Source: Cyanobium sp. E1_MAG_00006
GTDB lineage: Bacteria; Cyanobacteriota; Cyanobacteriia; PCC-6307; Cyanobiaceae
Direction: 5' to 3'
Assembly: GCA_027488975.1 (NCBI GenBank)
Contig: JAIYAQ010000005.1
Span: forward strand, 1-64,000
DNA: 64,000 bases
The translations under genes and the position numbers were made by a program. A model generated the notes under the pieces. It ran no database searches, was not told where the DNA came from, and worked only from the letters and a program-made list of their open reading frames with translations. Shown one piece after another: positions 17,312 through 34,939 of the stretch. Position 1 is the stretch's first letter; every line of letters begins with the position of its first letter.

Positions 17312-17797
17312 TCAGTTGCAGCCCTGGGCAGAGATCCGGTAGGTGAACCCGGTGGCGGCCTGATCGGCGCTGGCACCGATCTTGAAGTTCAGCTGGCTGA
17401 CCGTCTTGCCGGGTACGGCCGGAATATCCCACTGGCGACCGGTGCCGACCTGGGGAGCGTACGACTCATTGACCACCTGCAGGTTGGAACCATCGGTGAA
17501 CTTCAGATAGGCCTGAATCGGGTAGGTGGCGCTGACGGAGGAGTTGGCCGTGAAGAAGAATTTATAACTGGAGTAGGGCTGGGTCACGAAGAAGTCCGTG
17601 TTCCAGTTCGGCCTGCCGAAGGGATTCCCGCTGCTGATGGTCTTGGTGACCACCGGCGTCACACCATTACCCCCCACCGGTGAGAGGAACTGGCAACTCT
17701 GCGCGGAGGCAGGGCTGGCGGCGACCAGCAGAGAGCTGCCGGCGGCGAGGGCAAGCAGAACACGGCGGCGGGAAGCGGAGAGAACGCGCTGAACCAT
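17312..17797 (-). CDS. Secreted/periplasmic small protein of unknown function
   Basis: About 161 residues. A signal peptide is plain: basic SASRRR, hydrophobic VLLALAAGSSLLVAA and cleavage-like SPASAQS. The mature part begins CQFLSPVGGNGV and ends in ISAQGCN, giving two Cys near the two ends that could form a disulfide. It is rich in aromatic residues and predicted beta strands (WNTDFFVTQPYSSYKFFFTA). The pattern matches conserved hypothetical proteins I recall from marine Synechococcus, but no function is known to me. The frame is open to 17878. The ATG at 17797 puts the signal peptide at the N-terminus. Convergent with pabC, 15 bp apart. Confidence 0.8.
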   Translation of the reverse strand: MVQRVLSASRRRVLLALAAGSSLLVAASPASAQSCQFLSPVGGNGVTPVVTKTISSGNPFGRPNWNTDFFVTQPYSSYKFFFTANSSVSATYPIQAYLKFTDGSNLQVVNESYAPQVGTGRQWDIPAVPGKTVSQLNFKIGASADQAATGFTYRISAQGCN

Positions 17798-17924
17798 GGG
17801 GACGATGACGAGAACAGAACGATGGAGCACAGAGGACAGCGGCTCTCTGCTCCAACCAGCTGTAGCAGTCTTCAGCACCCGTGGCGCCGAACTGCGGCAA
17901 CTTGGTACTCACCACAAAGGCAGA

Positions 17925-18632
17925 TCACACGCTGAGGAAGCGATCCACCACCTGCTTGCTCAGTTCGGTGGTGGGACCGCTGGCCACCACACCACCCTTC
18001 TGCATCGCGTAGTACCAGTCGGCCTGGCGCACGAAATGCAGGTGCTGCTCCACCAGCAGCACGCTGATGCCGGTGGTCTCGATGATGCGGCGCACGGCCC
18101 GCTCGATGTCGAGCACCACCGAGGGCTGGATGCCTTCGGTGGGTTCATCGAGCAGCAGCAGCTTCGGCTTGCCCAGCAGGGCGCGGGCGATCGCCAGCTG
18201 CTGCTGCTGTCCGCCGGAGAGGTCGCCGCCGCGGCGGGCCAAGAACTTCTCGAGGATCGGGAACAACTCGAACACCACCGGATCGATGTGGCGGTTCTTG
18301 GCCATGCCGCCCGGCAGAGCCTCCAGCCCCAGCAGCAGGTTCTCGCGCACCGTGAGTTGGGGGATGATCTCCCGCCCCTGGGGCACGTAGCCGATGCCGC
18401 TGCGGGCGCGGGCGTGGGGGGGCATCGCCGAGAACTCCCGCCCCTGCAGGCGCACGGCGCCGCTGCGCTGGCGCAACAGGCCGATCACCGATTTCAGCAA
18501 CGTGGTCTTGCCCACGCCGTTGCGACCGATCAGGCACACCATCTGCCCAGGCGCGACGCTGAGGTCAACGTCGCGCAGGATATGGCTCTCGCCGTAGTAG
18601 ACGTTCAGACCACGGATGTCGAGCAGGCTCAT
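17925..18632 (-). CDS. urtE: Urea ABC transporter ATP-binding subunit UrtE
   Basis: LivF-type ATPase of the high-affinity urea importer. 235 residues with Walker A GRNGVGKTT, the GYVPQGREI Q-loop, signature LSGGQQQQLAIARAL and Walker B LLLLDEPTEGIQPS. The start overlaps the urtD end by ATGA. It is the last gene of the reverse-strand urtABCDE operon. No T-rich hairpin was seen in the 127 bases after its stop. Confidence 0.95.
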   Translation of the reverse strand: MSLLDIRGLNVYYGESHILRDVDLSVAPGQMVCLIGRNGVGKTTLLKSVIGLLRQRSGAVRLQGREFSAMPPHARARSGIGYVPQGREIIPQLTVRENLLLGLEALPGGMAKNRHIDPVVFELFPILEKFLARRGGDLSGGQQQQLAIARALLGKPKLLLLDEPTEGIQPSVVLDIERAVRRIIETTGISVLLVEQHLHFVRQADWYYAMQKGGVVASGPTTELSKQVVDRFLSV

Positions 18633-19381
18633 GCCTCATCCTCCTGGATGTCGCGGCCGAGGTAGACCTCGATCACGCGGGGGTCGTTCTGCACCTGGTC
18701 CATCGAGCCTTCACACAGCACATGGCCTTCGTGCAGCACCGTGACCGGTGCCTGCAGATCGCGGATGAACTCCATGTCGTGCTCGATCACCAGCACGGTG
18801 TGATCGCCGGCCAGCTGGCGCAGCAGCTCACTGGTGCGAGCCGTTTCCTCATCGGTGAGACCGGCCACCGGCTCATCCACCAGCAGCAGCTCCGGGTCCT
18901 GCGCCACGAGCATGGCGATCTCCAGCCACTGCTTCTGGCCATGGGAGAGACCGCCGGCGGGCTGGTTGGCATGCACCTCCAGACCCACCACCCCCAGCAG
19001 GTGCTGCACGCGATCGCGCTGCTCACTGCTGAGGCTGCCGAACAACAGGGCCGCCGGTCCATGGGGCCCACGCACCGCCAGCTCGAGATTGCGGCGCGGC
19101 GTGAGGTTCTGATAGACGCGCGGCGTCTGGAACTTGCGGCCGATCCCCAGGCGGGAGATCCGATGTTCGCTCTGCCCCACCAGGGAGCGGCCGCGGAAGA
19201 ACACATCCCCCTTGGTGGGGCGCACCTTGCCGGTGATCACATCAAGGAACGTGGTCTTGCCGGCGCCGTTGGGGCCGATCACGGCACGCAGCTCACCGGG
19301 GGCCAGCTGCAGGTTGAGGTCGTTGAGGGCAAGGAAACCGTCGAAGCTGACGGTCACTCCCCGCAGTTCGAGCAAGGTCAT
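18629..19381 (-). CDS. urtD: Urea ABC transporter ATP-binding subunit UrtD
   Basis: LivG-type ATPase, partner of UrtE in powering urea import. 250 residues with Walker A GPNGAGKTTFLDVITG, the branched-chain-family marker GIGRKFQTPRVYQNLT, signature LSHGQKQWLEIAMLV and Walker B LLLVDEPVAGLTDEE, and a C-terminal LivG-like tail (VLCEGSMDQVQNDPRVIEVY). It overlaps urtC and urtE by 4 bases on each side, which points to translational coupling in the operon. Confidence 0.95.
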   Translation of the reverse strand: MTLLELRGVTVSFDGFLALNDLNLQLAPGELRAVIGPNGAGKTTFLDVITGKVRPTKGDVFFRGRSLVGQSEHRISRLGIGRKFQTPRVYQNLTPRRNLELAVRGPHGPAALLFGSLSSEQRDRVQHLLGVVGLEVHANQPAGGLSHGQKQWLEIAMLVAQDPELLLVDEPVAGLTDEETARTSELLRQLAGDHTVLVIEHDMEFIRDLQAPVTVLHEGHVLCEGSMDQVQNDPRVIEVYLGRDIQEDEA

Positions 19382-20535
19382 GACTGATCTCCACCGGCTG
19401 GGCCTTCCAGCTGCTGCTGTTCGGCCTTCACTTCAGGATTGAGGTCGAGTTCGGGGTAAGTGGCGAGCTTCGGCGGCGGCGCCACCAGAGCAAGCAGGCT
19501 GGCTGGACCGCCACTGCGCCACCAGCCCACCAGGCCGTCCGGCAGGGCCGTGACCACCAGCAGGAACAGGCCACCCTGGATGAACAGCCAGGTTTCAGGC
19601 AGTGCCTCGCTCACCAGGCTCTTGGCGTAGTTGATCAGCACGGCGCCGAGCACAGCGCCGATCAGGGTGCCACGACCGCCAACCGCCACCCAGATCACCA
19701 TCTCAATCGAGAAGGGCACCGCCATGTACTGGGGCGAGATGATGCCGGACTGCACGGTGTAGAGGGCACCGCTGATGCCCGCCAGGGCACCAGCCACGGC
19801 GAAGACCACCGTCTTGTAGGCCGTGGGGTTGTAGCCGGTGAAGCGAAGCCGCGGTTCGTCGTCGCGGATGGCGATCAGGGCATCGCCGAAGCGGCCGCGC
19901 GTGAGCCAGCGGCAGAGCAGGAAGGCGCCGATCGCCAGCAGCACCGTGATCCAGAACAGGGCACGCTGCATGCCATCGCTGCCCACCAGCTGGCCGAAGA
20001 TCACGGCGGTGTCGGTCTTGAGGCCATTGGTGCCGTTGATCAGCTTCTGCTGGCCGTTGAAGAAGTTGAAGAACACCAGCAGGGCGGCCTGGGTGAGGAT
20101 CGAGAAGTAGACCCCCTTGATGCGGTTGCGGAACACCAGATAGCCCAGGCCACCGGCCACCAGAGCCGGGATCACCCAGATGGCGAACAACGTGAACAGC
20201 GGTGAATTGAACGGCTGCCAGAAGGCGGGCAGACTCTTGACGCCATAGAGTGAGAAGAACTCCGGCAGCTGGCCAGGCTCGAGGCTGTCGAGCTGCAGAT
20301 ACATCCCCAAGGCATAGCCACCGAGGGCGAAGAAGATGCCCTGGCCGAGGCTGAGCATGCCGGTGTAGCCCCAGATCAGATCAATGCCAAGGGCAACGAT
20401 CCCAAGGGAAAGGAAACGTCCCAGCAGGTTCAGCCGGAACGGCGGCAGCAGTGCAGGCAGCACCAGGGCTGCCACCACGATCAGCACCCAGGGGAGCCAG
20501 CGACGCAGCTGGCGTGAGGCGAGCAGATCAGCCAT
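19378..20535 (-). CDS. urtC: Urea ABC transporter permease UrtC
   Basis: LivM-type inner-membrane permease of the urea importer, 385 residues with about 8-10 hydrophobic segments. The family segments GYTGMLSLGQGIFFALGGYA and RLRFTGYNPTAYKTVVFAVA are visible, as is the typical ADGLVGWW-like region near the C-terminus (TALPDGLVGWWRSGG). The ATG at 20535 is 3 bases after the urtB stop. The C-terminus is a charged cytoplasmic tail. Confidence 0.95.
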   Translation of the reverse strand: MADLLASRQLRRWLPWVLIVVAALVLPALLPPFRLNLLGRFLSLGIVALGIDLIWGYTGMLSLGQGIFFALGGYALGMYLQLDSLEPGQLPEFFSLYGVKSLPAFWQPFNSPLFTLFAIWVIPALVAGGLGYLVFRNRIKGVYFSILTQAALLVFFNFFNGQQKLINGTNGLKTDTAVIFGQLVGSDGMQRALFWITVLLAIGAFLLCRWLTRGRFGDALIAIRDDEPRLRFTGYNPTAYKTVVFAVAGALAGISGALYTVQSGIISPQYMAVPFSIEMVIWVAVGGRGTLIGAVLGAVLINYAKSLVSEALPETWLFIQGGLFLLVVTALPDGLVGWWRSGGPASLLALVAPPPKLATYPELDLNPEVKAEQQQLEGPAGGDQS

Positions 20536-20538
20536 CGA

Positions 20539-21696
20539 TCAGGCCTCCACCATGCGGCCCTTCTGCGGGAACAGACCGGCTGGTCTGATCTGCAGGAAGA
20601 CCACGATCAGGGCGAACACCAGCACCTTCGCCATCGAGGTGGTGGCGAAAAAGGTGATCAGATCATTAAGACCCGCAGGCATCGCCGGCCACACCAGCAG
20701 CAGCGAGCCGGAGCCCACGATGTAACTCAGAACACCGATGCCCAGGGCCGCCAGCACGGTGCCGGCCAGCTTGCCGACGCCGCCGAGCACCACCACCATG
20801 AAGCAGTCGACGATGTAGTTGCCGCCGAGGTTCGGACCCACCGAACCCAGCAGCGTCACCGCCACGCCAGCCACCCCGGCCAGACCGGAGCCGATCAGGA
20901 AGGTGAGCGCATCCACCTTCTCGGTGGGAATACCGAGGCAATCGCTCATCGGCCTGTTCTGGGTCACGGCGCGGATACGCATACCCCAAACACTCTTCTG
21001 CAGGAACCAACTCACCGCCACCAGGGCAATCACCGTGAGGGCGATGATGAACAAACGAGCCGCCGGCATGTTCACGGCGCCCACATCGATGGATCCCCGC
21101 AACCAGGTGGGGGCTGTCACATCGATGTTGCGGGCACTAAACCAGGGCTGATCAAGGGCGCGTTGATTACCGAGGGCAGAGGCGATGGCGATGCCGACAG
21201 CGCCGCTGACGATCCAGCTGCCGGTGCCGAGAAGCGGTGTCCAGCGCTGCTGCCACCAGGCCTTCGGCGTGAAGCGAGGAATCAACAAGCCACCTGCGAC
21301 CGCCAGCACCAGGCCGATGGCGAAGGCACTACTGACGGAGCGCACGAACTGCTGCAGGATCAGGCTGACACCCCAGGTGGCCAGCAGCGTTTCCAGCGGC
21401 CGGCCATAGAGGCGGCGGATGACTGTCTTTTCCAGAAGCAGACCCGCCAGGCCACTCACCAGAAAGGCCAGCGGAATCGCCACCAGGATGTAAATCGGGA
21501 ACAGAGCATCCGGCAGCACGGCCTTGAAGATGTTCTGCACCACAAAGGTGGTGTAGGCACCGAGCATCATCAACTCGCCATGGGCCATGTTGATGACACC
21601 CATCAAGCCGAAGACCACCGCCAGGCCCAGCGCCGCCAGCACCAGAACCGAGCCGATGGCCAGGCCGTTGAAGAGTGTGTCGTAGAGAAGATCCAT
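20539..21696 (-). CDS. urtB: Urea ABC transporter permease UrtB
   Basis: LivH-type inner-membrane permease, 385 residues. The N-terminal segment NGLAIGSVLVLAALGLAVVF is followed by GVINMAHGELMMLGAYTTF, a clear LivH/UrtB signature, and SDCLGIPTEKVDALTFLIGS lies in the cytoplasmic EAA-like region. The start codon is 134 bases after urtA. A hairpin with a T-run sits in that gap and probably lowers expression of the permease genes relative to the binding protein. Confidence 0.95.
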   Translation of the reverse strand: MDLLYDTLFNGLAIGSVLVLAALGLAVVFGLMGVINMAHGELMMLGAYTTFVVQNIFKAVLPDALFPIYILVAIPLAFLVSGLAGLLLEKTVIRRLYGRPLETLLATWGVSLILQQFVRSVSSAFAIGLVLAVAGGLLIPRFTPKAWWQQRWTPLLGTGSWIVSGAVGIAIASALGNQRALDQPWFSARNIDVTAPTWLRGSIDVGAVNMPAARLFIIALTVIALVAVSWFLQKSVWGMRIRAVTQNRPMSDCLGIPTEKVDALTFLIGSGLAGVAGVAVTLLGSVGPNLGGNYIVDCFMVVVLGGVGKLAGTVLAALGIGVLSYIVGSGSLLLVWPAMPAGLNDLITFFATTSMAKVLVFALIVVFLQIRPAGLFPQKGRMVEA

Positions 21697-21750
21697 CGCG
21701 ATCCGCAGGGATCAGGCAGAGGGCCAGAAATTGCGCCGAACGGCAGGAAC

Positions 21751-21779
21751 AAAAATGGGGGAGATCACTCTCCCCCATT
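21751..21779 (-). terminator. Hairpin plus T-run between urtA and urtB (partial terminator/3' stabiliser)
   Basis: A perfect 11-bp inverted repeat (arms 21754-21764 and 21769-21779, 4-base loop) is followed on the reverse strand by a run of five T (A-run at 21751-21755 on the plus strand, partly within the stem). This is the shape of an intrinsic terminator. As urtBCDE seem to depend on the urtA promoter, partial read-through is likely (inference). Confidence 0.8.
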
Positions 21780-21829
21780 GAGCTTCGAATACGTGAAGGC
21801 GGGCGGAACCGCAGAACCGCCCGGTTCGA

Positions 21830-23122
21830 TCACATCTTGTACTTGCCGGCGTCGGGGCGCTTCTGCGTCCAGTCGCAGGTGTAGCCCTTGGTTTCGGGCA
21901 CGTACTGGTTCCAGGCCAGAGGCTTCACGAAGCCTTTGTTCTCAAGGATCTTGAACATGCCATCCTTCTGCACCTCGCCGATCAGCACAAGCTTCTCAAC
22001 GTGGTGGTTGGGCTGCACGGTCACCTTGCCCTCGGGAGCGTCGAAGCTGACGCCGATCAGGGCCTCGCGGACCTTGTTGTCGTCAACGCTGTTGGCCTTC
22101 TCGGCAGCAGCGGCCCAGAGATACACCATCATGTAGGCGGCCTCAGCGGGGTCGTTGGTGACCCGCTTGTCGCCGTACTTGGCCTTGAAGTTCTTGGTGA
22201 ACTCCTTGGACGCTGGCGTATCGAGGCTCTGGAAGTAGTTCCAGGCCGCGTAGGTGCCCTCGAGGTACTCAGGACCGATTGCCGCGATCTCCTCCTCGGC
22301 GATCGAGAAGCTCATGATCGAGTAGCCGTTGGCCGGAGTGATGCCCGCGGCCTTCATCTGCTTGAAGAAGGCCACGTTGCTGTCGCCGTTCAGGGTGTTG
22401 ACGATCACACCACCCTTGGGCAGGGCCTGCTTGATCTTGGCGATGATCGGAGCCACCTCGGTGTTACCAAGGGGCAGGTAGTCCTCACCGACGACCTTGC
22501 CACCGTTGGCCTTGAGCTGCTCCTTCATGATGGTGTTGGCCGTGCGCGGATACACATAATCCGAGCCCACCAGGAAGAAATCCTTGCCTTTGTTCTTCAG
22601 CAGCCAGTCCACAGCAGGCTCAGCCTGCTGGTTGGGTGCAGCACCGCTGTAGAAGATGTTCTTGGAACACTCCTGACCCTCGTACTGGATCGGGTAGAAG
22701 AGGAAGTGATCCTTGGCTTCGAACACCGGCAGCATTGCCTTGCGGCTGGCGGAAGTCCAGCCACCGAACACCACAGCCACCTGATCCTGATCGATCAGTT
22801 TCTTGGCTTTCTCAGCGAAGGTGGGCCAGTCCGAAGCACCGTCTTCCTCGACGGGAACGATCTTCAGCTTCTTGCCGTCGACCGTCACGCCACCCTTGGC
22901 GTTGATCTCGTCGATGGCCATCAGCTCGGCTTCGGCCACCGTGTTCTCGGAGATGGCCATGGTGCCGGAGCGTGAGTGAAGGATCCCCACCTTCACTTCA
23001 CCGTCGAAATCACCAGAGGCTTGCTCACCGCCACCGCAGGCCACCAGCGACAGGCTGGCTGCAACAGCCGTTGCACCGGCGATCGAGCGCATGGCCACTT
23101 TGCGCATCTGAAGGGGATCCAT
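21830..23122 (-). CDS. urtA: Urea ABC transporter substrate-binding lipoprotein UrtA
   Basis: Binds urea in the periplasm for delivery to UrtBC. 430 residues. The signal peptide ends in a lipobox LSLVAC, so the mature protein is a lipid-anchored type 1 periplasmic binding protein. Family segments include KVGILHSRSGTMAISE at the start of the mature domain, VFGGWTSASRKAMLPVFE, LLFYPIQYEGQECSKN-like (FLFYPIQYEGQECSKNIFY) and ETKGYTCDW near the C-terminus. The ATG at 23122 (MDPLQ) is used; an internal ATG gives MRKVA. An NtcA-type site lies about 80-100 bases upstream. Confidence 0.96.
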   Translation of the reverse strand: MDPLQMRKVAMRSIAGATAVAASLSLVACGGGEQASGDFDGEVKVGILHSRSGTMAISENTVAEAELMAIDEINAKGGVTVDGKKLKIVPVEEDGASDWPTFAEKAKKLIDQDQVAVVFGGWTSASRKAMLPVFEAKDHFLFYPIQYEGQECSKNIFYSGAAPNQQAEPAVDWLLKNKGKDFFLVGSDYVYPRTANTIMKEQLKANGGKVVGEDYLPLGNTEVAPIIAKIKQALPKGGVIVNTLNGDSNVAFFKQMKAAGITPANGYSIMSFSIAEEEIAAIGPEYLEGTYAAWNYFQSLDTPASKEFTKNFKAKYGDKRVTNDPAEAAYMMVYLWAAAAEKANSVDDNKVREALIGVSFDAPEGKVTVQPNHHVEKLVLIGEVQKDGMFKILENKGFVKPLAWNQYVPETKGYTCDWTQKRPDAGKYKM

Positions 23123-23176
23123 GAAAACTCCTACGGAAAACCGCTGATTGTTGCCGCTGCGATCAGCGGTGGTCGG

Positions 23177-23219
23177 AAGGTATCCAGTACCCGGCCGAGG
23201 GCTTTGTAACCGTTGAAAC
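23177..23219 (-). promoter_or_regulatory. NtcA-type activated promoter of urtA
   Basis: On the reverse strand, 23219-23206 reads GTT-N8-TAC, one mismatch from the NtcA consensus GTA-N8-TAC. Exactly 23 bases further is TACCTT (23182-23177), fitting the TAN3T -10 box. This spacing is the classical class II NtcA-dependent arrangement, replacing a -35 box. It lies 55 bases or more before the urtA ATG. Nitrogen control of urtA by NtcA is known in other cyanobacteria. Confidence 0.7.
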
Positions 23220-23343
23220 GGATTTGCTAAGCGCTGACCTGGCGGCTCACCTGCAGGCCTGATCTCCCCACGGCGCCGGACTGGCCCTCGAGGTCAAACG
23301 GGGAGTTCCGCCTGGCCTTCCCTGCGATTCGCTACACGGCTGT

Positions 23344-23961
23344 TCAGTTGTTGCCGACCGGAGGCGGCAGCTGGGCGAGCAGGAACTGCTCGACAGCCTC
23401 CAGTCCCTCGCCGCTGCGGAGGTTGGTGAAGCACCAGGGCCGGCCGGGCCGCATGCGTTCGGTGTCCGCCTGCATCACCGCCAGGCTGGCCCCCACCAGC
23501 GGGGCCAGATCGATCTTGTTGATCACCAGCAGATCGGAGCGGGTGATGCCGGGCCCGCCCTTGCGCGGAATCTTGTCGCCGGCGGCCACGTCGATCACGT
23601 AGATGCAGAAATCCACCAGCTCAGGGCTGAAGCTGGCGGCCAAGTTGTCGCCACCGCTCTCTACCAGCACAAGATCCAGATCCGGGAAGAGCGCCTCCAG
23701 CTCCGCCACGGCGGCCCGGTTGATCGAGCAGTCCTCGCGGATGGCGGTGTGAGGGCAGCCACCGGTCTCCACACCGCGGATGCGGTCCGGTTCGAGGGCG
23801 CCGGCCCGGGTGAGGAACCGAGCGTCCTCCTGGGTGTAGATGTCGTTGGTCACCACCGCCAGCTGCAGGCGATCGCGCAGCCGGCGGCAGAGCGCTTCCA
23901 CAAGGGCCGTCTTGCCGGATCCCACCGGACCGGCGACACCAACGCGCAAACGACTGCTCAT
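23344..23961 (-). CDS. ureG: Urease accessory GTPase UreG
   Basis: SIMIBI-class GTPase that drives nickel delivery to urease together with UreE, UreF and UreD. 205 residues with the P-loop [15 protein letters not shown], the nickel/zinc-binding CPH motif ([13 protein letters not shown]), the [17 protein letters not shown] segment and the guanine-specific NKID. The frame is open to 24015, but the ATG at 23961 (MSSRLRVG) gives the normal N-terminus. It is separated from ureF by about 3.3 kb carrying another ABC transporter, where most cyanobacteria have the two side by side. Confidence 0.95.
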
Positions 23962-24020
23962 CGCTTTAACCAGGTGCAGCACGGTGCCATGACTGCCATC
24001 CTGGCGGAGCAGCAAGCGCG

Positions 24021-24499
24021 ATGGCGGCAGGGTCCGGCCGGCTCGACTTCGGCATCGTCGGTCTGAGCCTGCTGACCGGTTCCGCCCTCAGCATGGGCTT
24101 CATCCAGCTGCTGGCGGGGCCGCTGGAGGAGATGTCGACCCTCAGTGTTCAAGCCCTCGCGGTCCAGATCAGCGCGCTGGCGTCGCCCCTTCTGATCAGG
24201 CCGGCACCCTTCAGGGCGAGGCCCGGGCTGGTTCAGGCCTGCTGCAGGCAAGAATCAGCGGCGTCAGCGAGAGCATCGAACAGAGCCTCAGCTCCCTGGA
24301 GTCCACCCTGCAGGATGTGAGCGCCCTGGTGCGCAGCAGCAATGGCCTGCTGAGGGACATCCAGCGCAGCTGGCTGCTTCAGCTGCTGGAGCCCGCTGCC
24401 GAACGGGTCACCCCGACCCCGGCGACATCTACAGAACCAAAGACGCCGCCGGCGGGCGCAGTCCCTGCAGCGGAGTCCCAACCGCTCATCGGCCGCTGA
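24021..24499 (+). pseudogene. Frame-disrupted small membrane/coiled-coil protein gene
   Basis: Two overlapping short frames together look like one protein. The first (from 24021) has a hydrophobic helix ([20 protein letters not shown]) then an amphipathic stretch. After about 24180 the sensible reading moves by one base back (-1), giving GTLQGEARAGSGLLQARI, then a coiled-coil-like SESIEQSLSSLESTLQDVSA, SNGLLRDIQRSWLLQLLEP and a Pro/Thr/Ala-rich tail to 24499. It is on the opposite strand to the genes around it, between ureG and the COG2984-type binding protein. It may be a real frameshift or a sequencing error. No function is recognised. Confidence 0.5.
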
Positions 24500-24517
24500 A
24501 GCACTGCCGACTGAGAT

Positions 24518-25531
24518 TCAGCTCACCACTTTGTCGGCTCGCTTGAGCAGCGCTTCGGGCAGCGTCACGCCGATGGCCTTGGCCGTGGCCATGCTCACCA
24601 GCAGATCGGTCTTGGTGAGCGGTTCAAAGGCCATCGTCGCCGGGGATTCGCCCTTGAGCACGCGCACGGCGAGTCGACCGGCGGCCATGCCATCGTCGCG
24701 GTAGTTCCAGCCGATCACCGCCAGGCAACCCGGCAGTTCGATATCCGGCGGATCCACTGAGTACACCGGGATCCTGTTCTCCAGGCCCACCTTGCAGATG
24801 GCGTTGAAGGCCTGAATGGTGGCGTAATCGCCGATCTTCACGAAAGCCTCCACCTTCTTCTCGGCCAGGGCCTGCGCCGCCTGCAGCACCTCGCCGGAGT
24901 TCGCTACCGACTGGGCCTCGATCGTCAGCCCCCGCTTGTCGGCTTCCTTGCGCAGGATGCCGGCCTCGTAGTCGGAGTTGGGCTCACCGGGGTTGTAGAT
25001 CAGGCCAACGCGCCTGATTGCCGGGTTCACCTGCTTCGCCAGATCCAGCTCCTCCCCCACCGGGTTGGTGCCGATCGTGCCCACAACGTTGGGCCGGTGC
25101 TGGCCCACACCACCAGGAGGCTTGCCGGCGCCGGCACCCCAGGGATTGGAGCAGTAGCAGAAGACCACGGGCACCGATTCGGGCATCACCTTTATCGCCG
25201 CCTGCAGCGGCGGGGTGCCAACCGCCAGCACCATGTCCACCTTCTCGCTGAGGAACTGCTGCATCACCAGGGTGGTGTTGGGCAGTTCGCCGGCGGCGTC
25301 CTTCTGGAGGAAGGTAACGGTCTCGCCATCCCGGTATCCAGCGGCGACCAGGGCTTCCTCGAAACCCTCGCGGGTGAGGTTTGGCGGCGGCGCATCCACC
25401 ATCTGCAACATGCCGATCACCGGCCCTTTACGGGGCTTGCCGCCTCCCAGCCTGCCGCAGGCCGCCAACAGCAGCGAACTCCCCAGTCCGGCACCGGCCA
25501 GGGCGATGAACTCACGACGCCGCAGACTCAT
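24518..25531 (-). CDS. ABC transporter substrate-binding lipoprotein, COG2984 (ABC_sub_bind) family
   Basis: Periplasmic binding protein of 337 residues. The N-terminus RRREFIALAGAGLGSSLLLA with lipobox LLAAC indicates a lipoprotein, with Tat-like features. The mature part follows the TrpX-like fold: GPVIGMLQMVDAPPPNLTREG, LSEKVDMVLAVGTPPLQAAI, VGLIYNPGEPNSDYEAG and AVIGWNYRDDGMAAGRLAVR. Characterised relatives bind tryptophan/phenylalanine or aromatic acids, but the family is broad, so the ligand here is unknown. It overlaps the ATPase gene by ATGA. Its place inside the urease island makes a nitrogen-containing ligand plausible, but unproven. Confidence 0.88.
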   Translation of the reverse strand: MSLRRREFIALAGAGLGSSLLLAACGRLGGGKPRKGPVIGMLQMVDAPPPNLTREGFEEALVAAGYRDGETVTFLQKDAAGELPNTTLVMQQFLSEKVDMVLAVGTPPLQAAIKVMPESVPVVFCYCSNPWGAGAGKPPGGVGQHRPNVVGTIGTNPVGEELDLAKQVNPAIRRVGLIYNPGEPNSDYEAGILRKEADKRGLTIEAQSVANSGEVLQAAQALAEKKVEAFVKIGDYATIQAFNAICKVGLENRIPVYSVDPPDIELPGCLAVIGWNYRDDGMAAGRLAVRVLKGESPATMAFEPLTKTDLLVSMATAKAIGVTLPEALLKRADKVVS

Positions 25532-26352
25532 GGTGTTTCCGCAGGAGGTGGAGGCACGGTGGTATCCGGTGGCACTGTGCCGCTGCCGTACAGAGCCCGC
25601 AACGCCGCCGGTGTGAACCGTTGCCGCTCGGCAGCGCTCCAGTCGCCGATCAGGCGCCCCTCCTGCAGCATCACCAGCCGATCACCATGGCGCAGGGCCT
25701 GCTCAAGGCTGTGGGTCACCATCAAGGTGGTGGTGCCCAGGCGTTGCACCAAGCGATCGGTGAGCGCCATCACCGTGGCCTCGGCGCGGGGATCAAGGGC
25801 GGCAGTGTGCTCATCCAGGAGCAGCAACCGCGGCTGCCCCAGGCTGGCCATCACCAGGCTCACCGTCTGGCGCTGACCACCGGAGAGCTGACCCACAAGA
25901 GTTTCGAGCCGATCGGCCAGAGGGAGCCCCAACTCCTCCAGCAGAGCGGCGTAGCGACGGCGATCGCCGCGGCTGGGATGCAGACCGCCGATCAGACCGC
26001 GCCGACCGAACACGCTGAAGCGGCGGCATTCAGCCAGGCGCAGATTCTCAGCGATGGTGAGGTTGGGGGCGGTGCCGTCGAGCGGGTTCTGCATGACCCG
26101 ACCGATGAGGCGGGCGCGGCGATAATCCGGCCATCCGAGCAACTCCCGCCCCTCCAGCTGCACGGAACCGCCACCGGCCCGCAAGGCACCCGCGATCAGG
26201 TTGAGCAACGTCGACTTACCAGAGCCGTTGCTGCCGATCACAACGACGAACTGGCCCGAAGGGCAGTGGAGGTTGAAGCCTTGGAAGAGCTGGCGCCAGC
26301 TGCCGCCGGGCACGGAGTGGCCCCAGCTCAGCTCGCTGATGCTGAGGCTCAT
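25528..26352 (-). CDS. ABC transporter ATP-binding protein, COG1101 type
   Basis: Cytoplasmic ATPase of the COG2984-type importer. 274 residues with Walker A GSNGSGKSTLLNLIAG, the Q-loop region GRVMQNPLDGTAPNLTIAEN (the VMQNPLDGT pattern is characteristic of this subfamily), signature LSGGQRQTVSLVMASL, Walker B LLLLDEHTAALDPRAE, and a Pro/Thr-rich C-terminal tail. The D-loop begins LDEHTAALD instead of the commoner LDEPT, also seen in this subfamily. Overlaps by 4 bases at both ends. Confidence 0.9.
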   Translation of the reverse strand: MSLSISELSWGHSVPGGSWRQLFQGFNLHCPSGQFVVVIGSNGSGKSTLLNLIAGALRAGGGSVQLEGRELLGWPDYRRARLIGRVMQNPLDGTAPNLTIAENLRLAECRRFSVFGRRGLIGGLHPSRGDRRRYAALLEELGLPLADRLETLVGQLSGGQRQTVSLVMASLGQPRLLLLDEHTAALDPRAEATVMALTDRLVQRLGTTTLMVTHSLEQALRHGDRLVMLQEGRLIGDWSAAERQRFTPAALRALYGSGTVPPDTTVPPPPAETP

Positions 26353-27233
26353 GATCGGCCTCCTGGATCACTGACGCCAGGAAGGCGCAGGCGACCCAAC
26401 CCCAGGGCCGCCAACAGCAGCAGCGCCGTGGCCAGCTTGAGGTCCACCGGTTCCATGCCCAGCTGCAGGGCCAGGGCGATCATGGCCCGGAACAACACCG
26501 AGCCCAGCGCCACCGCCAGAAGGGCCATCGGCACGCTGCGGGGCCGCAGCACCGACTCACCGACGATCACGGCCCCCAGGCCGAGGATCAGGGAGCCGAT
26601 GCCCATGGTCACGTCGGCGAAGCCCTGATACATGGCAACCAGGGCCCCAGCGAGAGCAACCAGGCCATTGCCAGCGGCAATGCCGAGGGTGAGACCCCGA
26701 CGGGTGCTGATCCCGTTGGCGCGGGCCATGACCGGGTTATTGCCGATGGCCCGCAGGGCCAGACCCATATCGGTGGCGAGCCAGAGGGCCAGCAGACCGA
26801 TCAGCCCCAGAACCACAACCAGCAGAGCGATCAGCCACTGGCCGTCGGCGGCGAAACCGAGCTGGGGCAGGTTGCTCACCGAAAGCTTCAGGTCGGTGAG
26901 CGGGATGTTGGAGCGGCCCATCAGCCGCAGGGTGATCGAGTAGAGGCCGGTGGTGGTGAGGATGCCGGCGAACAGGTCGTTCACACCCAGGCGCGTGTGG
27001 ATCAGACCGGTGACCGTGCCGGCCAGGGCGCCGAGGGCCACGGCCGCCAGCAGCGCCAGAGGCGCGGCCACCTGCTGGCTGAGCAGCAGCGCGGCACTGC
27101 CACCGCCGAGCGCGAAGGAGCCATCCACCGTGATGTCGGCGAAGTTGAGCACACGCAGGGTGAGGTACACGCCGAGGGCCAGGCCGGCGTAGGCCAGCCC
27201 CTGATCCATGGCGCCAATCCAGATCGAGAGCAT
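26349..27233 (-). CDS. ABC transporter permease, COG4120 type
   Basis: Inner-membrane permease of 294 residues with about eight hydrophobic helices. Family markers are GVYLTLRVLNFADITVDGSF near the N-terminus, GLIHTRLGVNDLFAGILTTT, and LALRAIGNNPVMARANGIST in the cytoplasmic loop. The frame extends to 27359, inside ureF, but the ATG at 27233 (MLSIWIGAMDQG) fits the family; an ATG at 27209 is the alternative. It begins 58 bases after the ureF stop on the same strand with no visible promoter or terminator, so it probably sits on the ureEF transcript. Confidence 0.88.
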   Translation of the reverse strand: MLSIWIGAMDQGLAYAGLALGVYLTLRVLNFADITVDGSFALGGGSAALLLSQQVAAPLALLAAVALGALAGTVTGLIHTRLGVNDLFAGILTTTGLYSITLRLMGRSNIPLTDLKLSVSNLPQLGFAADGQWLIALLVVVLGLIGLLALWLATDMGLALRAIGNNPVMARANGISTRRGLTLGIAAGNGLVALAGALVAMYQGFADVTMGIGSLILGLGAVIVGESVLRPRSVPMALLAVALGSVLFRAMIALALQLGMEPVDLKLATALLLLAALGLGRLRLPGVSDPGGRS

Positions 27234-27291
27234 CGGCTTGGGCGGATCGCCGCATTGTGGCGATGCCGGCCCGGAAGGCCATGCGGCGCAG

Positions 27292-28034
27292 TCAGCTGCG
27301 GAACAGGCGTGAGTAGAGCTCGGCATGCTGCAGCTGGGCCAGGGAGGCCCCCACCCCACCGCTCCAGAGGGTGCGGGGGTCAGCCGCGGCGAGGGCGTGG
27401 GCCCGCTCGGCGATCAGCGGCGCCAGCGCCAGCTGCAAGCGCTGCCCCTGGGTGGGGCCAAGCGGCACCAGCCGCACGGCGGCGCTGATCTGATTGGCAA
27501 CCCAGCCGTAGAGGTAGGCCTCCTCAATGGCGGGAGAGCCGAGCCCAAGGCAGCAGGCGGCCCAGGCGAAGGCGGCGGGCCAGGCCAGGGTGGGCGCCGC
27601 CGTGGTGGAGGGCCCAGCGCCCCCCGCCGCCGGCAGCGGCCAGCCCAGATCCGCCAGCAGCAGCAGCAACGACAGACCCATCTGGCGCTGCTGGGCCCGC
27701 AGCTCCGGTGCCTCGCGCTGCGCCAGCAGCCAGCCGTCGAGATCCGCCAATGCGTTCCAGGCCTGCCGGGCCCGCTCAGCCCCGCCGTCCTCAGCGGCCT
27801 CCGCGCCCATGCCCTCAGGCAGGTTGTGCAGCAAAGCCTGCAACGGTGCCAGGGCCGCGACCTCGAGCGTGATCGCACCACCCATCAACTCGGCCCGCAG
27901 CCAGGCCTCCAACGGCTCGACAGCCGTGAGCCGACCGGCCTGCACGAGCACCTCCAGGCCCTCGGAGTAGCTGAAGGCCCCCACCGGCAGAGAGGGGCTC
28001 ACCAGCTGGAACAGCCGCAGCCGCGCCGGATCGC

Positions 28035-28038
<4 letters not shown>
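27292..28038 (-). CDS. ureF: Urease accessory protein UreF
   Basis: All-helical accessory protein that bridges UreG and UreD during nickel insertion into urease. 248 residues. The family N-terminus LRLFQLVSPSLPVGAFSYSE followed by GLEVLVQAGR is clear, as is the C-terminal RLVPLGPTQGQRLQLALAPL segment. A Gly/Ala/Pro-rich insertion lies in the middle. The start overlaps the ureE end by ATGA. Downstream, the usual neighbour ureG is displaced by an ABC transporter. Confidence 0.93.
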
Positions 28039-28613
<575 letters not shown>

Positions 28614-28731
28614 CAGATCAAGCCTCCTGCCACGGCCGCCGCAGCCTCACCGCTCACGCTGCACCCAGTGTGCCTGCGGCGCCAGGATCGCCCGGCATTG
28701 CCGGAGCAGACTTCCACCAGTGGGCGCCACC

Positions 28732-29685
28732 ATGACGCAGCCGGGCTCCGACAACGCCACACCGCAACCGTGGTGCGCCGAGGCGCGGCTGCGCTTCCTG
28801 CGGCGGGGCGACCACACCGGCCATCAGGGCAGCGCCAGCTCGCCACTGAAGCTGCAGCGGGCCTTCCGTCAGAGCAGCGGCCATTGCGAGCTGCCGCTTC
28901 TGCATACGGCCGGCGGTCTGGTGGGGGGCGATGAGCTGCGGATCACGGCCGAACTGGAGCCCGGCAGCCGTGCCCTGCTCACCAGCGTCGCCGCCCAGAA
29001 GGTGTACGGCACCGTGGCGCGCTCCCGCCGCAGGCCCGCCGGCGCCTGGGCCCAACAAACGCTCAACCTGCGGCTGGCAGCCGGCAGTGATCTGGAGTGG
29101 CTGCCGCAGGAGCTGGTGCTCTATGCCGATGGGCTGTTCGAGCAGCAGGCCCGGGTGGAACTGGAGGCCGGTGCCAGCTTTCTGGGCATCGAGGTGGTGC
29201 GGCTGGGGCGCACGGCCGCAGGGGAAACGCTGGCCGCGGGGCGCTGGCGCTCCTGCCTGGAGATCCGCCGCAGCGGCCGCTGGGAGCTGGTGGATCGGCT
29301 CGAGCTGGGGGGCGAAAGCCTCACCGGCAGTCATGGCCTGGCGGGTGAGCCGGTGTTCGGCTCGCTGGTGTGGGTGGCGCCGCGGCCGCTGGCGGCCGGG
29401 GAGCTGGAGCAGCTGATGGCCGACTGCCGTGCCGACCGGCGCGGGTTGGAAGGGGAGATGGCCTGTGGCGCCCTTGAGCAGGGGCTCGTGGCCCGCTACC
29501 GCGGCCCCTCCAGCCAGGCGGCCCGCCACTGGTTCAGCCGCATCTGGCGCCGCAGCCGCGCATTGCGGGGCCTGGCACCACCGGAACTGCCGCGGGTGTG
29601 GCCGTTCCAGGAGCAGCCGTTCGCCAAGCACGCACCTGCTGCCGCGGCAGTGCCGACCGTCGGCCCCAACACCGGTTCACCCTGA
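28732..29685 (+). CDS. ureD: Urease accessory protein UreD
   Basis: Scaffold accessory protein (UreD/UreH) that binds apo-urease for nickel delivery. 317 residues. Family markers: PLKLQRAFRQS, ELPLLHTAGGLVGGDELRI, LTSVAAQKVYGT, WLPQELVLYADG and FLGIEVVRLGR. The frame is open from 28504, but the ATG at 28732 is right before the conserved domain and leaves room for a divergent promoter with ureE. No NtcA consensus was found in that 118-base gap. ureA follows after 37 bases. Confidence 0.94.
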   Translation: MTQPGSDNATPQPWCAEARLRFLRRGDHTGHQGSASSPLKLQRAFRQSSGHCELPLLHTAGGLVGGDELRITAELEPGSRALLTSVAAQKVYGTVARSRRRPAGAWAQQTLNLRLAAGSDLEWLPQELVLYADGLFEQQARVELEAGASFLGIEVVRLGRTAAGETLAAGRWRSCLEIRRSGRWELVDRLELGGESLTGSHGLAGEPVFGSLVWVAPRPLAAGELEQLMADCRADRRGLEGEMACGALEQGLVARYRGPSSQAARHWFSRIWRRSRALRGLAPPELPRVWPFQEQPFAKHAPAAAAVPTVGPNTGSP

Positions 29686-29722
29686 ACCTGACCAGGGCCA
29701 CCACCCCTGCCAAAGTGAATGA

Positions 29723-30025
29723 ATGCTCCTCACGCCTCAGGAAAAGGACAAACTGCTGATCGTCACCGCCGCCCTGCTGGCGGAGCGGCGGCTGAACCGC
29801 GGCCTGAAGCTGAACCACCCGGAGGCGGTGGCCTGGCTGAGCTTTCTCGTGCTGGAAGGCGCACGCGACGGCAGGAGCGTGGCCGACCTGATGGCCGAGG
29901 GCACAACCTGGCTCACTCGTGAGCAGGTGATGGAGGGGGTGCCGGAGCTGGTGCACGAGGTGCAGATCGAAGCGGTCTTCACCGATGGCACCAAGCTCGT
30001 CACCCTGCACGAGCCGATCCGCTGA
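29723..30025 (+). CDS. ureA: Urease gamma subunit
   Basis: Small structural subunit of the nickel enzyme that hydrolyses urea to ammonia and carbon dioxide. 100 residues, the typical length. [20 protein letters not shown] at the start and the [20 protein letters not shown] segment near the end are diagnostic. It stands 4 bases before ureB in the ureDABC operon. Confidence 0.97.
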
Positions 30026-30373: not shown

Positions 30374-32086
<1,713 letters not shown>

Positions 32087-33484: not shown

Positions 33485-34939
33485 ATGTTCACCGACTACA
33501 GGCCCGGCAAGGGTTACGACGAATATTTCAGCTCCAGCGAACAGCCCCGCCAGGCCCTGCAGCCCCTGCTCGGCGCCCTCGGCGCCCTGGGCCTCGATGA
33601 GCTGAACCGGAACCACGCCGCCGCCGGCATCCTGCTCAAGCGGCTGGGGGCCACCTTTCGCCTCAACGATTCCGGCAGCCGCGGCGGCGAGCGGATCTTG
33701 CCGTTCGACCCCCTGCCCCGCCTGATCGATCAGGCGGACTGGCAGCGGCTGGAGCAGGGGCTGATCCAGCGCCTTGAGGCGATCGATCTCTTCCTGGCCG
33801 ATGTGTATGGCGATCAGAAGATCCTTGCCGACGGCGTGATTCCGCGGGAGGACGTGGAAACCTCCCAGGGCTGGCGGCCGCAGATGCGCGGTTTCAAACC
33901 GCCACTCGGGCTCTGGTGCCAGATCTCAGGCCTCGATCTGGTGCGCGATGGTGCCGGCACCTGGCGGGTGCTGGAAGACAACCTGCGCTGCCCCTCCGGC
34001 GTGGCCTACTTCCTGGAAAACAGGCGCGTGATGAAGCGCATGTTCCCCAGCCTGTTCGCGGGGCGCACGGTCCAGCCGATCGACGATTACCCCTCACGCC
34101 TGCTGCAGACCCTGCGGGATCTCGCCCCCTGGACCGATCGGCCGCGGGTGGTGCTGCTGACCCCGGGGGTGTTCAACAGCGCCTACTTCGAGCACAGCTA
34201 CCTGGCCCAGCAGATGGGAATCGCCCTGGTGGAGGGCCGTGATCTGGCCTGCCAGGACGGACGGGTGTGGATGCGCAGCACCAGCGGGCTTGAGCCGGTG
34301 GATGTGATCTACCGCCGCATCGACGACGACTTCCTCGATCCGGCCGTGTTCCGCTCGGACTCCATGCTGGGGGTGCGGGGCCTGATGGAGGTGTACGCGG
34401 CCGGAAGGGTGGCGATCGCCAACGCACCGGGCACCGGCGTGGCGGACGACAAGCTGATCTACGCCTATCTCCCTGAGATGGTGCGCTACTACCTCGGCGA
34501 GGAGGCGATCATCGAGAACGTGCCCACCTACCTCTGCTCACGGGCGGATGATCAGGCCTACGTGCTCGCGCACCTGAGTGAGCTGGTGGTGAAGGCGGTA
34601 TCGGAGGCAGGGGGCTACGGCATGCTGATCGGTCCTCACGCCAGCGAGGCGGAGATCCTGGAGTTCGCCGACAAGATCCGCGCCAACCCGCGCAACTTCA
34701 TCGCCCAGCCGACCCTGGAGCTCTCAACCGTGCCGTCCCTGAGTGAAGGCGAGCTCTACCCCTGCCATGTGGACCTGCGGCCCTATGTACTGCGGGGCAA
34801 GGAAGCCTGGGTGAGCCCGGGTGGGCTCACACGCGTGGCCCTCAAGCGGGGCTCCCTGGTGGTGAATTCCTCCCAGGGCGGCGGCTGCAAGGACACCTGG
34901 ATCGTTGAGGAAGCTCCTGAGGAGACCGTCGCATGCTGA
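33485..34939 (+). CDS. Circularly permuted ATP-grasp protein (DUF404/DUF407, COG2308)
   Basis: Predicted ATP-dependent carboxylate-amine ligase of 484 residues. Family features: RILPFDPLPRLIDQADW near residue 75, LFLADVYGDQKIL, the ATP-grasp segment VLEDNLRCPSGVAYFLENR, VDVIYRRIDDDFLDP, and SEAGGYGMLIGPHA. The fold is a circularly permuted ATP-grasp, predicted by comparative genomics to form peptide or amide bonds; substrate unknown. Start at the ATG 33485. Its end overlaps the alpha-E gene by 7 bases. First gene of a four-gene cluster. Confidence 0.9.
   Translation: MFTDYRPGKGYDEYFSSSEQPRQALQPLLGALGALGLDELNRNHAAAGILLKRLGATFRLNDSGSRGGERILPFDPLPRLIDQADWQRLEQGLIQRLEAIDLFLADVYGDQKILADGVIPREDVETSQGWRPQMRGFKPPLGLWCQISGLDLVRDGAGTWRVLEDNLRCPSGVAYFLENRRVMKRMFPSLFAGRTVQPIDDYPSRLLQTLRDLAPWTDRPRVVLLTPGVFNSAYFEHSYLAQQMGIALVEGRDLACQDGRVWMRSTSGLEPVDVIYRRIDDDFLDPAVFRSDSMLGVRGLMEVYAAGRVAIANAPGTGVADDKLIYAYLPEMVRYYLGEEAIIENVPTYLCSRADDQAYVLAHLSELVVKAVSEAGGYGMLIGPHASEAEILEFADKIRANPRNFIAQPTLELSTVPSLSEGELYPCHVDLRPYVLRGKEAWVSPGGLTRVALKRGSLVVNSSQGGGCKDTWIVEEAPEETVAC

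Follow-up and report, generated by a model that had tools for sequence, protein, structure and literature searches.

Background

ATP-binding cassette (ABC) importers of the TrpXYZ and CD0873 type (COG2984-COG4120-COG1101) are built of three parts: a substrate-binding lipoprotein of the PF04392 (ABC_sub_bind) family that serves as receptor, a permease and an ATPase. The solved structures 3lkv, 3lft and 6hni are described as receptors for phenylalanine, tryptophan and tyrosine (PMC6816091). Here we analyse an importer of this already known kind, a PF04392 receptor with its own permease and ATPase, which lies among the urease accessory genes on a 64,000-nucleotide stretch of DNA from Cyanobium sp. 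E1_MAG_00006 (GenBank assembly GCA_027488975.1, contig JAIYAQ010000005.1, positions 1 to 64,000; hereafter the window). It shares with the TrpXYZ and CD0873-type importers the three-part make-up, the receptor family and the receptor fold, but its receptor is only 26-30% identical to 3lkv, 3lft and 6hni, falls far short of the TrpX cut-off and differs from them at several conserved positions of the cleft. Its genomic neighbour, the urea importer UrtABCDE, has permeases of the same PF02653 superfamily; Urt, however, possesses two permease and two ATPase genes as against one of each, its receptor belongs to a different family, and an NtcA-type site was found only before urtA. The genes ureE, ureF and ureG are reported as frequently contiguous (PMC6737895), and within the literature search terms used we recognised no published description of this importer in the urease cluster.

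The initial annotation of this DNA had suggested that the importer might bring in a nitrogen compound handled with urea metabolism, or something needed for urease. The comparisons below favour, with a probability of about 0.72, an importer that has an independent function of its own and merely shares the ureEFG operon, unneeded by urease or urea uptake.

Results and discussion

A complete importer between ureF and ureG

On the minus strand the gene order is ureE, ureF, permease, ATPase, receptor, ureG and urtABCDE; ureD, ureA, ureB and ureC are on the plus strand, opposite to the importer. The features are:

28035..28613, minus strand: ureE, with a histidine-rich tail (PF05194, 81.7 bits)
27292..28038, minus strand: ureF, upstream neighbour (PF01730, 110.4 bits)
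26349..27233, minus strand: permease, BPD_transp_2, COG4120-like (open reading frame; PF02653, 69.4 bits)
25528..26352, minus strand: ATPase, COG1101-like (PF00005, ABC_tran, 97.3 bits; ATGA overlap with the permease)
24518..25531, minus strand: receptor, substrate-binding lipoprotein, COG2984-like (PF04392, 170.8 bits, cut-off 25.9)
23344..23961, minus strand: ureG, downstream neighbour, start codon chosen by us (TIGR00101, 320.7 bits, cut-off 204.2)
17925..23122, minus strand: urtABCDE urea importer (open reading frames; homologues mapped in relatives)

Open reading frames and Pfam and NCBIfam matches thus bear out the original placement of the importer between ureF and ureG, as well as the ATGA overlaps that had been noted: the permease-ATPase and ATPase-receptor junctions are both 4-base overlaps of this form. 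The receptor exceeds the Pfam cut-off with PF02653 and PF00005 partners adjoining, it is the single PF04392 gene of the source genome, and by eye its N-terminus has a twin-arginine/lipobox-like stretch. The three genes make up a complete and probably functional PF04392-type importer, in which the lipoprotein receptor would stand outside the membrane, the product of the one permease gene would form a dimer, and one ATPase would drive the uptake of a small organic solute of the importer's own. Ratios of nonsynonymous to synonymous substitution (dN/dS) of 0.07-0.125 in 6 pairs indicate purifying selection on the receptors of full importers.

Persistence of the importer after loss of urease and urt

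A sample of 300 genomes of the family (Cyanobiaceae) yielded 59 carriers of a PF04392 gene over the cut-off; these are related and not independent. In four carriers (G006, G007, G011 and G021) the importer occupies the place where the ure/urt block used to be, as judged from the outer neighbours of that block, which served as anchors (window 33485-34939 and 17312-17878). In G021 (L027) the homologue of the 33485 gene, permease, ATPase, receptor and the homologue of the 17312 gene follow one another, the importer being separated from the two homologues by about 533 and 134 bases. The three importer proteins of G021 are all open, and blastn detected no other ure or urt DNA on the contig. The G011 locus is split over two contigs, one with the 33485 homologue, permease and ATPase (L202) and the other with the ATPase, receptor, another gene and the 17312 homologue (L029). 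G006 likewise has the 33485 homologue, a ureA remnant, permease, ATPase and the start of the receptor gene on L039, and on L038 the end of that gene, a further PF04392 receptor gene (SBP2, discussed below), MlaD, MlaE and the 17312 homologue. In G007 (L034) the order is ureA, importer, SBP2, MlaD, MlaE and the 17312 homologue.

A search of 13 genomes detected ureC in 6 and did not find it in G006, G011, G021, G103, G162, G176 and G243. True UrtB was present in 3 of the 13 (G000, G015 and G023), the rest giving 34-39% partial matches or none; among those without a true UrtB were G006, G007, G011, G021, G103, G162, G176 and G243. Three of these genomes (G103, G162 and G176) are 99% complete and hold the importer at another site. 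In the receptor tree G021 and G011 are sisters (support 99), as are G006 and G007 (100), so that the ure and urt genes were likely lost from the locus in at least two lineages of Vulcanococcus, the genus to which the window belongs.

An accessory that depends on urease should be absent or decayed where urease is missing, whereas this importer is intact in G021 and is carried by G103, G162 and G176, which lack ureC. A wider association with urease across the family was also considered and rejected: ureG occurs in 48/59 carriers and 175/241 non-carriers, a difference that is not significant (Fisher p 0.19). The importer is retained without urease, and therefore a role tied to urease or urea is unsupported. 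The suggested part in urea metabolism or urease is further disfavoured by the 23/59 carriers whose sole copy is at another conserved site, and by the lack of an NtcA-type site upstream of the permease in all 14 regions searched, although no more than 0.06 would be expected there by chance.

Distribution and inheritance of the location

At E<=0.001 the PF04392 matches extend to 60/300 family genomes, and a close permease (E<1e-90) is found in 47/300, with 9 further weak matches; UreG is over its cut-off in 223/300. A phylum sample of 292 genomes gave 28 PF04392 matches at E<=0.001 and 17 over the cut-off, and outside the family the strong ones were only in G451, G497 and G312. The ure, urt and importer genes were mapped in 60 fetched stretches, to which 15 more were added later; loci L111-L178 largely duplicate genomes of the samples and were kept out of the counts.

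In 32/59 carriers a PF04392 gene lies in the ureF-ureG gap or immediately precedes ureG, so that its placement is not a matter of chance. Vulcanococcus contributes 10 full importers (that of G005 is cut by a contig end) and 3 receptors alone, and the Synechococcus lacustris group (g44) 4 full importers; in the three g44 loci that have ureF on the contig, additional genes set it 3.8-7.5 kb apart from the permease (in G145 it is off the contig). The remaining 15 carry SBP2 (13 in g6 and 2 in g47), which is in pieces in G294. Where no PF04392 gene intervenes, ureF directly adjoins ureG in 11/11 fetched ure loci (spacing -1 to 108 bases), in line with the usual adjacency assumed at the outset. The initial annotation had also reasoned that an ortholog placed elsewhere in most relatives would make the location accidental; this is the situation outside Vulcanococcus and the S. 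lacustris group, but within them the place is inherited.

All 26 fetched importer loci outside the urease locus share one other conserved site. In the first 11 of these (L022, L046, L048, L050, L051, L054, L056, L059, L061, L066 and L076) the permease follows a domain-of-unknown-function (DUF) gene in 11/11; carB is found on the same side, no more than about 6 kb away, in 10/11 (L051 showed none), and the opposite side carries an exporter ATPase, tpiA and folP in 10/11 (G014 being the exception). Within the reach of their contigs, fourteen later loci and L064 each show the DUF gene next to the permease, the exporter next to the receptor, or both. The carB, DUF, tpiA, folP and exporter genes are what we take them to be from their sequences. 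In G067, G102, G112 and G192 the DUF and exporter genes adjoin with no importer between, and in ten stretches around tpiA from the window's genus carB and the DUF gene were absent from the 12 kb taken.

A tree of permease, ATPase and receptor, restricted to loci with all three genes (L112 and L113 labelled ure-located by hand), separates 15 ure-located rows from 23 elsewhere by one change, with support of 35 and 85, respectively. For the receptor tree L176, L177 and L178 were dropped, and L112, L113 and L150 were labelled ure-located by hand. The approximately unbiased (AU) test did not reject a single clade of all gap-located receptors including SBP2 (p 0.08). An ancestor of these freshwater picocyanobacteria probably came to carry the importer between ureF and ureG.

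Two further observations concern the loci fetched. At the same place in L023-L081, two divergent UrtABC types, whose UrtA shares about 70% or about 90% identity with that of the window, alternate among relatives as if exchanged. A record titled Bifidobacterium breve (L144, CALPNT020000026.1) holds a picocyanobacterial importer locus and looks mislabelled.

Coupling to ureEFG and regulation

In 14/17 loci in which the receptor gene precedes ureG, its stop codon and a ureG start codon are -4 to +5 bases apart, the exceptions being G004 (54 bases), the window (556) and G022 (1550). At the other end, the ureF-permease spacing is 43-58 bases in nine loci (58 in the window) and 33 in G010, and SBP2, its start codons chosen by script, follows the stop codon of ureF at a distance of -4 to +5 bases in 11/15 loci. 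Because of the stop-start coupling in 14/17 loci, co-transcription with ureEFG is likely, and the tight overlaps kept over two genera strengthen what had been put forward as a conjecture. The importer would then probably be read together with ureEFG via coupled start and stop codons. No conserved promoter was evident in a by-eye comparison of the ureF-permease gap, and no sigma-70-like promoter was found in 23000-29800, a negative of little weight given an expected number of only 0.4. What the comparisons show is the gene content and order, the overlaps, the inherited location and the retention of the importer after urease and urt genes were lost; co-transcription, transport activity and a single arrival we infer.

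A nitrogen-type signal was recognised only before urtA:

23206..23219, minus strand: NtcA-type site GTTN8TAC with TAN3T downstream, before urtA (present in 25/43 urtA upstream regions)

The expectation from shuffled sequences is 0.56, and 18/43 regions are without the site. Both the relaxed motif and the form of its spacing to the -10 box were picked after viewing an alignment, and the motif and -10 form presumably correspond to those of NtcA. Alone the relaxed motif is no more frequent in the window than chance predicts (6 occurrences against 6.9 expected); it is informative for urtA only when combined with the spacing. The strict form GTAN8TAC had no match near ure/urt. Equivalent upstream searches of the receptor (0/18), SBP2 (0/14), ureG (0/43) and ureE (0/40) were negative, as was that of the permease noted above. 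The importer thus shows no upstream NtcA-type site of the kind expected of an NtcA-controlled nitrogen gene, and urt probably has a nitrogen-type promoter of its own.

A guanidine link was examined and discarded, as no riboswitch scored above the gathering threshold in the window or in 7 carrier/relative loci. T-box control, reportedly recorded for TrpX of S. suis, was likewise discarded, none being found in the same 7 loci.

Receptor structure and the alternative ligands

The AlphaFold model of the receptor (pLDDT 87.8) has a predicted type I receptor fold, and its best solved matches are 3lkv, 3lft (chain A) and 6hni (TMt 0.94-0.95, root-mean-square deviation 1.5-1.8). These relatives bind tryptophan, phenylalanine and tyrosine according to the cited work (PMC6816091), and two selectivity positions, Tyr277 (Tyr279 in CD0873) and the acidic Asp260 (Glu263), resemble the tyrosine-binding CD0873. 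An importer of tryptophan or another aromatic amino acid is nevertheless distinctly improbable. The receptor reaches only 144.7 bits with the TrpX model NF041285 (cut-off 390), and of the 62 residues that all three aromatic binders have in common, compared by identity, it keeps 36, including Thr106-Pro107, Gln110, Glu183, Asn185 and Asp235. The 26 that differ include the His, Leu and Asp of a His-Pro-x-Leu-Asp stretch (47, 50 and 51), Asp129, Ser-Asp 153-154 and Asn236. Furthermore, the freshwater strains covered by one report are said there to have no degradation route for phenylalanine, tryptophan or tyrosine (PMC11851481). As a guess only, the ligand could be a nitrogen compound that is cationic or resembles an amino acid, rather than just tryptophan, phenylalanine or tyrosine.

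Import of a nitrogen compound converted to urea in the cell, such as arginine, agmatine, or a guanidino or purine product, would make sense of the place in ureEFG with its coupled start and stop codons, and in the predicted model Asp260 could hold a cation. The same report describes growth of freshwater strains on basic amino acids without genes for the known importer of these compounds (PMC11851481), and an arginase/agmatinase-family gene is present at 22-840 of the window, about 17 kb from urtE. That gene family, however, is held by 29/30 genomes with or without the importer, so that its co-occurrence offers no contrast and was set aside as a hint of arginine; the retention of the importer without urease and urt, and the missing NtcA-type site before the permease, also speak against this explanation, and we regard it as unlikely. 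The supply of nickel, or of a nickel chelator, to urease is favoured by the position beside ureE, ureF and ureG only. It is most improbable, given that the receptor, with its type I fold, has receptors for aromatic amino acids as its nearest structural matches, that the ATPase scores 95.4 and 93.3 bits where the NikE equivalogs demand 354 and 332.55, and that the importer is kept in genomes without ureC. Neither do the proteins reach the Urt equivalog scores (UrtB 24.2/250.3, UrtD 91.9/304.1 and UrtE 92/285.8 bits).

Several observations weigh against an importer of independent function. G007 keeps a ureC end fragment on another contig. G021, G011, G006 and G007 are metagenome-assembled genomes, 75, 93, 82 and 84% complete and with 2-6% contamination, which renders absence off the contig less certain, and a contig end falls inside the importer in G006 and G011. 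The importer at the other site can itself decay, as in G167, where the receptor is in pieces and no ATPase match was found. The ure-located group is weakly supported in the three-gene tree (35), and the AU test rejects the gap-located receptors without SBP2 as one clade (p 0.02). Finally, useful shared regulation could still lie behind the coupled overlap with ureG and a place kept stably across two genera.

Lone receptors in the ureF-ureG gap

In G002, G016 and G017 the gap holds a receptor alone, the partners of the full importer being gone: no permease match was found genome-wide in the search of the 300 family genomes, and no ATPase at the locus. The three orphans group together in the receptor tree (100) and with two full importers of their genus (97), and therefore the permease and ATPase were lost there. 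Their dN/dS (0.13-0.17 in 3 pairs) indicates purifying selection, and that of SBP2 is 0.21-0.32 in 5 pairs; SBP2 itself forms a single 17-row clade with a long branch, unsure in its tree position. Apart from UrtB and UrtC, the PF02653 permeases of G002, G016 and G017 are one adjacent pair, which in G002, the only one of the three read by eye, looks like part of a Liv/Nat-like system of the amino-acid type that has a receptor of its own. Tentatively, and with considerable doubt, the orphans and SBP2 might be functional additional receptors for another importer to which they dock, the neighbouring UrtBCDE being the simplest choice; if so, one urea permease would serve two receptors with different ligands.

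Orphan urtA genes are known in marine Synechococcus from a published account (PMC8786288), likewise receptors without their own permease in picocyanobacteria; in contrast to these, the orphans here are PF04392 receptors inside the ureF-ureG gap, derived from a full importer. They make the orphan-receptor question raised by that account (PMC8786288) testable at a defined locus.

Other features of the locus

The 556 bases preceding ureG in the window contain a decayed gene pair:

24039..24484, plus strand: antisense MlaE-MlaD remnant between receptor and ureG (tblastn)

The tblastn matches, which adjoin one another, cover first MlaE residues 31-83 at 66% and then MlaD residues 192-278 at 44%. 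The remnant was recognised only via MlaD and MlaE of relatives, NCBIfam and Pfam giving no match to its frames. An antisense MlaD-MlaE pair lies between SBP2 and ureG in 15 genomes (for example L053 4744-6285 and L057 9590-11106), beside SBP2 in G006 and G007, and after the receptor gene in G022. The end of UreE (window 28035-28120) is a long His-Asp repeat; tails of this kind resemble those of nickel-storing UreE. An Rfam match to 5_ureB_sRNA (RF02514, 123.4 bits), antisense within ureC at window 30529-30815 and seen in L036 too, may simply mirror conserved urease coding sequence.

Conclusions

The position of a gene in an operon hints at its function, and here comparison contradicts the hint: the importer outlives deletion of the surrounding urease and urea-uptake genes. 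This cautions against a urea-related annotation of the importer. At the same time, the importer gains a testable context in the use of basic amino acids by freshwater picocyanobacteria, as that use is described in the source cited (PMC11851481).

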